Shown here: piece after piece, positions 3,197 through 4,506 of the stretch | Layout: every line of letters starts with the position of its first letter | Position numbering within the stretch: position 1 is the first letter of the stretch | Source: a bacterium HR29 | GTDB taxonomy: Bacteria; Chloroflexota; Dehalococcoidia; Tepidiformales; Tepidiformaceae | Reading direction: 5' to 3' | Assembly: GCA_002898215.1 (NCBI GenBank) | Contig: BEIF01000004.1 | Coordinates: 1 to 64,000 of the forward strand | Length of the DNA: 64,000 bases | Translations under genes and position numbers: made by a program | Notes under the pieces: generated by a model | Told to the model about the DNA's origin: nothing | The model's database searches: none | What the model saw: only the letters and a program-made list of their open reading frames with translations

Positions 3197-3275
3197 CGCG
3201 AACCTCGGCGTTCGAGCGGTTGGTGCCCACCGGCACACCCGCTGGGCGTGGCCGCTGGCGGAAGGTTCTCCGGGG

Positions 3276-3305
3276 CACGAAAACAGGCCGGAAAGCCTGT
3301 TCGTG
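3276..3305 (-). promoter_or_regulatory. Hairpin in the rpsL leader
   Basis: Within the untranslated leader of rpsL the complement can fold AACAGGC (3295-3301) against GCCTGTT (3282-3288) across a six-base loop. Outer pairs CACGA/TCGTG extend the stem past a two-base bulge. The transcript side continues into two more T residues, so it is only weakly terminator-like. Ribosomal protein operons are often regulated by folded leaders; a regulatory role here is inference. Confidence 0.4.
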
Positions 3306-3410
3306 AACAGCACCCTGGCAGCTGCGCCGTCCAGGGCCGTCTTCAAGCGCTCGGCTTTGCGACCTGGCGAACTCGAAGAAGCCTGCCAGTCAGTTAAGCC
3401 ACGATCGAGA

Positions 3411-3438: not shown

Positions 3439-3520
3439 ACATGCGCCTTTCGGCGTCGCGTCGCGCCGGCAGCACCACTTTGCCACCGAACCGTCCGCTG
3501 CGTTCCCTCTCCTAGCCCCC

Positions 3521-3658
3521 GAGGGCCGCCGTTGCTAACGGCAGGTACCCGGGAACGGGTGCCAGCGACATTGTCCTCCCCGTCGCCGGGGGCGCGGCCC
3601 GAACGGGTGGCGCCCCCAAAACCCTCCCGCCGCGCCAGTTCCCCTGGCGCGGCGTTTT
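3521..3658 (+). ncRNA. Candidate structured RNA or leader element upstream of the LysM gene
   Basis: Five hairpins follow one another with almost no spacing. H1 pairs 3528-3533 with 3537-3542. H2 pairs 3544-3551 with 3556-3563 and is capped by a GGAA tetraloop. H3 pairs 3565-3569 with 3582-3586. H4 pairs 3588-3594 with 3611-3617 and can have an inner CCC/GGG stem. H5 is the 11-pair terminator at 3628-3654 followed by TTTT. There is no convincing coding frame. It ends 74 bases before the LysM start. I could not match it to the consensus cores I remember for c-di-AMP, c-di-GMP, ZTP, fluoride or T-box elements. It could be a riboswitch-like attenuator or an independent small RNA. Confidence 0.5.
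3628..3658 (+). terminator. Intrinsic terminator between the str operon promoter and the LysM gene
   Basis: CGCCGCGCCAG (3628-3638) pairs perfectly with CTGGCGCGGCG (3644-3654) across the loop TTCCC and is followed by TTTT. It reads on the plus strand. No plus-strand gene lies upstream, so it must end a short non-coding transcript or act as an attenuator in the LysM leader. Confidence 0.8.
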
Positions 3659-3732
3659 CGCAGGTGATTGCCCCACGGGCCACATCGTGCCACCATAGGC
3701 CCGGTGGCGGCAGGCCCAAGGGTGAAGAGCTC

Positions 3733-4506
3733 GTGACCAGCCCCGGGGAAGAAGAGATCGGAGCCATCTGCCCGTACCTAGGCCTGGCAGACGACGCCGA
3801 ATCGCACGCGACCTACGCGACCGAGGCGCACCGCTGCTACCGCATGCCCACGCCGACCCGGATCGCCCTCAACCACCAGGAGACGTTCTGCCTTGGCGGG
3901 GCATACGCGAACTGCCCCGTCTACCGCGGCGAGGGCGTGCCCGGAGCGCGACCAGCCGCCCAGGCGGGCGCCGCCAGGCCCGCAGGACCGACGCAAGGGC
4001 CCGCGACACCACGACGGAGCCCAGGCCGCGTGGCCGCACCGTCCCGGACACCACCGTCGGGCATGATGACCCTTCCTCGGCGCGGAGGCGGCATCAGCAT
4101 GCCCGCAGCAACCGTCGGCCTGTTCGCGCTCGCCCTCGGCCTCGTGATTCTGGCGATCATCATCCAGCGCGCCCTTGGTGGAAACGGCGACGAGTTGACC
4201 GCGGCCGAGCGTTTCCAGACCCAACAGGCGCTCGCCGGGACGACGCCAACCCCGACGACCGGGACCCCAGGCGAAGGGACGCCGACCGTCACCGCGACGG
4301 AGACCGAAGCGCCGGGCAGGACACCGGAGGCGACGCCGAGCCCCACACCCGGCGGACAGCGCACCTACACGGTCCGGGCCGGGGATACATGCTTCGGCAT
4401 CGCCGAGGAGTTCGGCATCACCGTGGAGCAGCTCCGCGCAGCGAACGGACTCGACGAAGCGTGCACCATCTACCCGGACCAGCAGCTCATCATTCCGACC
4501 CCGTGA
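3733..4506 (+). CDS. Single-pass membrane protein with cysteine-patterned head and C-terminal LysM domain
   Basis: The 257-residue protein has three parts. An N-terminal segment carries four cysteines at about residues 13, 35, 53 and 61, in a CPYLGL...RCY...FC...NCP pattern that suggests a metal or iron-sulfur site. A hydrophobic helix spans about 124-146. A Thr/Pro-rich linker then leads to a LysM repeat at about 212-257 (YTVRAGDTCFGIAEEFGI), a peptidoglycan-binding module. The topology implies a cytoplasmic head and an external LysM domain. The GTG at 3733 is chosen because the conserved head begins just after it; an upstream in-frame ATG at 3532 lies inside the folded element. The 3' end overlaps the convergent YqeK-like gene by 17 bases. 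The exact function is unknown. Confidence 0.8.
   Translation: MTSPGEEEIGAICPYLGLADDAESHATYATEAHRCYRMPTPTRIALNHQETFCLGGAYANCPVYRGEGVPGARPAAQAGAARPAGPTQGPATPRRSPGRVAAPSRTPPSGMMTLPRRGGGISMPAATVGLFALALGLVILAIIIQRALGGNGDELTAAERFQTQQALAGTTPTPTTGTPGEGTPTVTATETEAPGRTPEATPSPTPGGQRTYTVRAGDTCFGIAEEFGITVEQLRAANGLDEACTIYPDQQLIIPTP

Follow-up and report, generated by a model that had tools for sequence, protein, structure and literature searches.

A putative small RNA gene with three hairpins between rpsL and a LysM gene in the Chloroflexota family of Tepidiforma

The window, that is the whole stretch of 64,000 nucleotides that was analysed, constitutes positions 1 to 64,000 of the forward strand of contig BEIF01000004.1 from bacterium HR29. 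The element described here is located, as in most of the loci compared, between rpsL on the minus strand and a gene for a LysM-domain protein on the plus strand, and the features of the region are as follows.

3480-3496, plus strand: conserved box TTGCCACCGAACCGTCC, from its conservation a putative activator or promoter-associated site.
3505-3511, plus strand: putative -35 region, consensus CCCTTnG and here CCCTCTC, a conserved block at a near-constant distance.
3528-3542, plus strand: stem 1 of the preliminary description (GCCGUU-GCU-AACGGC), 6 bp, folds in the window.
3529-3536, plus strand: putative -10 region CCGTnnnT, from its conservation.
3543-3617, plus strand: predicted body of a small RNA gene with three hairpins, matched by covariance model R1, with a presumptive start at A3543 or G3544.
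3544-3563, plus strand: stem 2, hairpin H1, 8 bp, with a GGAA loop in the window.
3565-3586, plus strand: stem 3, hairpin H2, 5 bp, with a loop of 12 nt.
3588-3617, plus strand: stem 4, hairpin H3, long and GC-rich.
3628-3654, plus strand: stem 5, terminator-like, 11 bp, followed by TTTT at 3655-3658.
3688-3696, plus strand: extended -10-like sequence TGCCACCAT, recognized by eye and read as a possible separate LysM promoter.
3733-4506, plus strand: gene for a LysM-domain protein with a GTG start, the downstream neighbour (Pfam LysM, E 6.5e-15).

Five closely packed hairpins had been reported at 3521-3658 in the preliminary description, and they fold as described, well beyond dinucleotide shuffles: the plus strand of 3500-3670 has a minimum free energy of -98.1 kcal/mol (z = -5.17) that none of 200 such shuffles equals, and the fold of the minus strand is less exceptional (z = -2.62). 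The five stems thus exceed chance, yet they are not one five-part unit, as stems 2-4 form a conserved RNA with covariation while stems 1 and 5 lie outside it. Relatives show no conserved helix at the position of stem 1, which overlaps the putative -10 region and is probably not part of the RNA. The GNRA cap and the intrinsic terminator, both also reported earlier, do not extend beyond the window genome as features of a class: GGAA closes H1 only there, with CCUGACCA in the relatives, and an 11-bp stem followed by TTTT is present there but a comparable stem with a T-run is missing in nearly all relatives. By sequence comparison the conserved unit is 3480-3617, with an upstream array and three hairpins.

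A BLAST search with 3510-3670 as query against 60 related genomes gave matches in 23 other genomes of the same family, spanning query positions 45-119; a further match, in genome G052, and the second of the matches in G001 do not represent the element. In the alignment the hairpin GGCGGCCTCCTGACCAAAGGACGCC comes first, then a near-invariant core, GGCGACATTGTCCTCCCCGTCGC, and then a long hairpin rich in GC. The covariance model R1, with 100 positions, matches 3529-3622 in the window (66.6 bits, E 1.5e-10) and finds exactly one copy in 24 of the 38 genomes of Tepidiforma's family, distributed over 14 of 18 genera and with E values of 1e-9 to 5e-19; the 393 genomes searched across the class and the 400 across the phylum gave no others beyond the family. 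The exact core, scanned for in 85,000 species, is found in Tepidiforma flava CP115149, in other Tepidiforma and in metagenome-assembled genomes of Dehalococcoidia. Beyond the family it occurs twice, once in Microbacterium and once in a genome of Clostridia, in both cases lacking the remaining parts of the element; R1 aligns H2 alone in these two, and they were set aside as probable chance matches. The small RNA thus appears, as far as these searches reach, to be confined in single copy to the Chloroflexota family that includes Tepidiforma. No R1 copy is found in genus g13 (9 genomes searched), where the region upstream of rpsL is differently occupied in all five genomes read, including the single-contig G012, nor in some further genomes of the family. 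At locus L083 (genome G006) the rpsL-LysM arrangement is kept without an R1 copy, and a sequence resembling GCGACCAATCCTCCCGTC may be what is left of a decayed element. In several genomes (L006, L015 and L018) short, imperfect repeats of the CGATTnnCGATTnnCGATT type are located just 3' of H3.

In the model-fitted alignment of the 24 loci, which leans towards the covariance model, 93.0% of the cells are paired, 15 of 24 pairs show double-sided changes, and the compensatory cells number 41, compared to 11.0 in shuffles, none of which is as high, and 6-13 in slid controls. A structure-blind MAFFT alignment by itself gives 11 pairs and 21 compensatory cells, against 5.6 and 8.2. The covariation is borne by H1, with compensatory changes in six of eight pairs and a loop of the CCUGACCA type in relatives, and by H3, with double-sided changes in nine of 11 modelled pairs. 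H2, which reads GCGAC-AUUGUCCUCCCC-GUCGC, has all five pairs invariant and the whole 22 nt nearly so, with the anti-Shine-Dalgarno-like loop sequence UCCUCCCC identical in 24 of 24 loci, and because H2 never varies, covariation offers no proof of its pairing. The loci share no conserved start codon or reading frame; a small peptide was rejected as the product on these grounds, the frame being interrupted in H3.

The helices contain 33 G-U wobbles against 3 A-C, indicating that the RNA is on the plus strand, and a plus-strand RNA gene very probably exists here. The fold z averaged over 24 predicted transcripts is -3.0. The box and the CCGT motif do resemble DNA-recognition elements, and both strands fold about equally well on average, as might be expected of a minus-strand RNA or of a site at the DNA level that is part of the rpsL promoter region, but this is very improbable, as the wobble count fixes the plus strand and rejects a minus-strand RNA, and the element persists without rpsL nearby. 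Furthermore, the rpsL promoter, read by eye on the minus strand as TTGACT...TACGCT, is located downstream of the element, which is therefore outside the rpsL transcript.

The array region upstream of the hairpins is unstructured in relatives but strongly patterned. CCCTTnG is found 17-18 nt upstream of CCGTnnnT with variable spacers, CCGT is invariant in all 18 non-redundant loci with a T at +7 in 15 of them, and AGG follows at +14 to +16 from CCGT, the span from CCGT to AGG being exactly 17 nt in 24 of 24 loci. The -10-like CCGTnnnT is without the A of a σ70 -10 region. Of the 24 loci, 22 have the box (consensus TGCCACCGAACCGTCC) 47-49 nt upstream of CCGT, including loci without rpsL in the vicinity. 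From this pattern the array reads as a putative promoter with an upstream site, and the predicted start of transcription, 3543 or 3544, would coincide with the beginning of H1. The only copy of the box with fewer than two mismatches in the window's own genome is the one at 3480-3496; a box regulon was rejected, with 11 other sites at two to three mismatches compared to 10 for the control in that genome. Some relatives have more box sites than the control.

The preliminary description had offered two readings, a small RNA that ends here or a leader attenuator governing the LysM gene, and the former is borne out by recurrence, covariation and the lack of an Rfam match. A cis-acting leader, riboswitch or attenuator, would agree with the position of the LysM gene, which in most loci follows the element on the same strand, and with the 11-bp terminator with TTTT that in the window separates it from the element. 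However, LysM is not adjacent in L002, L004, L005, L006, L022 and L024, several of which also lack rpsL nearby, and as the element is retained in such places it should be a free-standing gene and not a LysM riboswitch. The terminator is moreover not conserved, no riboswitch family is matched, and the promoter-like -10 sequence at 3688-3696 follows the element, with similar TGnTAnnnT-like sites seen by eye in some relatives. The leader was rejected because the element persists without LysM, and we regard it as improbable. The N-terminal motif ICPYLGLADDAESHATYATEAHRCY of the LysM protein aligns well in relatives, outside any Pfam match.

A second RNA is found on the minus strand at 3273-3368, a leader of the str operon (rpsL) that 36 of the family's 38 genomes carry in single copy and that is absent beyond the family among 393 genomes of the class. 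Double-sided changes occur in nine of 21 pairs, which belong to a hairpin at the centre and to an antiterminator-like helix in which CAGGUCGcAAAGC pairs with GCUUUcCGGCCUG. The 3' arm of that helix can alternatively form the terminator AACAGGC-UUUCC-GGCCUGUUUUCG, and the two helices are mutually exclusive. The leader has no match to an Rfam family, and a role for rpsL in attenuation or in regulation by a ribosomal protein is probable.

The suggested Rfam comparison, run on the window at gathering thresholds, gave a distant tRNA as the single match and nothing at the element, which was likewise unmatched in the loci of 12 relatives. Relaxed thresholds (E 10 and E 5, two copies) gave only matches at chance level. 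The preliminary description had not seen the consensus of a c-di-AMP-type riboswitch, and no Rfam riboswitch model is matched upstream of LysM. The 6C covariance model did not match the window or the 12 relatives' loci at gathering, nor two copies up to E 10 and E 5, and C-run loops of the 6C type are absent, the loops being AUUGUCCUCCCC and CCUGACCA, or GGAA in the window. The sequence CCUCCUCCC, which the cuckoo (ar14) RNAs carry in the unpaired part of each of their three hairpins, is absent from the loops of H1, H2 and H3; UCCUCCCC in H2 comes closest to it. 6S RNA was rejected, since the Rfam 6S model is unmatched and an RNA of about 75-90 nt with three hairpins is not a 6S rod; as a side observation, that model was detected nowhere in the genome (G000), whereas SRP RNA was. 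The small SRP RNA was also rejected, as the SRP RNA gene of the genome is located elsewhere (G000:C1:1047987-1048086). No described small RNA for Dehalococcoidia was found in the literature searched. With 24 of 38 family genomes carrying the element, with covariation and without an Rfam match, the earlier suggestion of a new class of RNA holds.

We propose that 3543-3617 on the plus strand, approximately and possibly up to 3658 in the window genome, would be a free-standing small RNA gene with three hairpins, transcribed from AGG by an unusual promoter (CCCTTnG / CCGTnnnT) with the upstream box at a fixed distance. H1 and H3 would serve as scaffold and 3' cap. CCUCC-type anti-Shine-Dalgarno motifs are present in the H2 loop AUUGUCCUCCCC and, in relatives, in CCUCCUGACC of H1; the loop sequence UUGUCCUCCCC of H2, together with CCUCCUGACC of H1 in most relatives, should then pair in trans with G-rich ribosome-binding sites of mRNAs and repress translation, as small RNAs with C-rich loops do elsewhere. 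In NfeR1 (PMC10746234) and B11 (PMC10470900) ribosome-binding sites are blocked by loops that are of the CCUCC type or rich in C, and the loops of NfeR1/ar14 act by pairing with the ribosome-binding site (PMC10746234, PMC3927594). By this analogy, a free-standing gene for a trans-acting translational repressor that works through the C-rich anti-Shine-Dalgarno loop of H2 has about an even chance of being the right description. When exact complements of both loops were sought in 22 genomes, with flanks readable for part of the matches, there was no clear enrichment and no recurring gene.

In a free-standing RNA of the same anatomy, the invariant H2 might instead be the binding site for a protein, a ligand or the ribosome, in place of antisense pairing. 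The near invariance of all 22 nt of H2 including its stem, beyond what an antisense seed needs, and the lack of a recurrent mRNA target speak for such a partner, but the loop sequence is a classic anti-Shine-Dalgarno one, of the kind known from antisense small RNAs, and we consider this possible although doubtful. A rather unlikely further reading is a new RNA class in which H2 binds a dedicated partner and a lineage-specific alternative sigma factor and an activator would serve essentially this one gene. The RNA family itself is well supported and present in cultured Tepidiforma, and both function and targets of the proposed repressor are directly testable, as the predicted start is exact and both the conserved loop and the putative promoter are defined. 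The patchy absence from a whole genus and from some single species provides natural comparisons.

The small RNA sX13 of Xanthomonas has C-rich loops, and its model (RF02232) gives a sub-threshold alignment to 3564-3659 with 14.5 bits and E 1.9, where the gathering threshold is 50; homology was rejected at this chance-level score. In the 6C RNAs a strong hairpin at the 3' end comes after the loop hairpins, and two of the loops carry runs of about six C. Their layout resembles that of the element, and the 6C/B11 RNAs of actinobacteria are likewise small and free-standing with C-rich hairpin loops, but the loops of the element are UUGUCCUCCCC and CCUGACCA and not runs of six C, the phylum is another and the promoter is different. 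In B11 two C-rich hairpin loops pair with G-rich 5' UTRs (PMC10470900). The cuckoo (ar14) RNAs of alphaproteobacteria, such as NfeR1 and SmelA075, have three hairpins as has the element, and retain the anti-Shine-Dalgarno motif unpaired while the stem sequences drift (PMC10746234, PMC3927594), like the stems of H1 and H3 do here. They differ in having CCUCCUCCC in all three hairpins, whereas in the element H2 alone has UCCUCCCC, the CCUCC of H1 is half-paired, H3 is without such a loop and the stem of H2 is invariant. As an analogy that falls short of demonstrated membership in either family, the element most likely works like the 6C/B11 or the cuckoo (ar14) RNAs.
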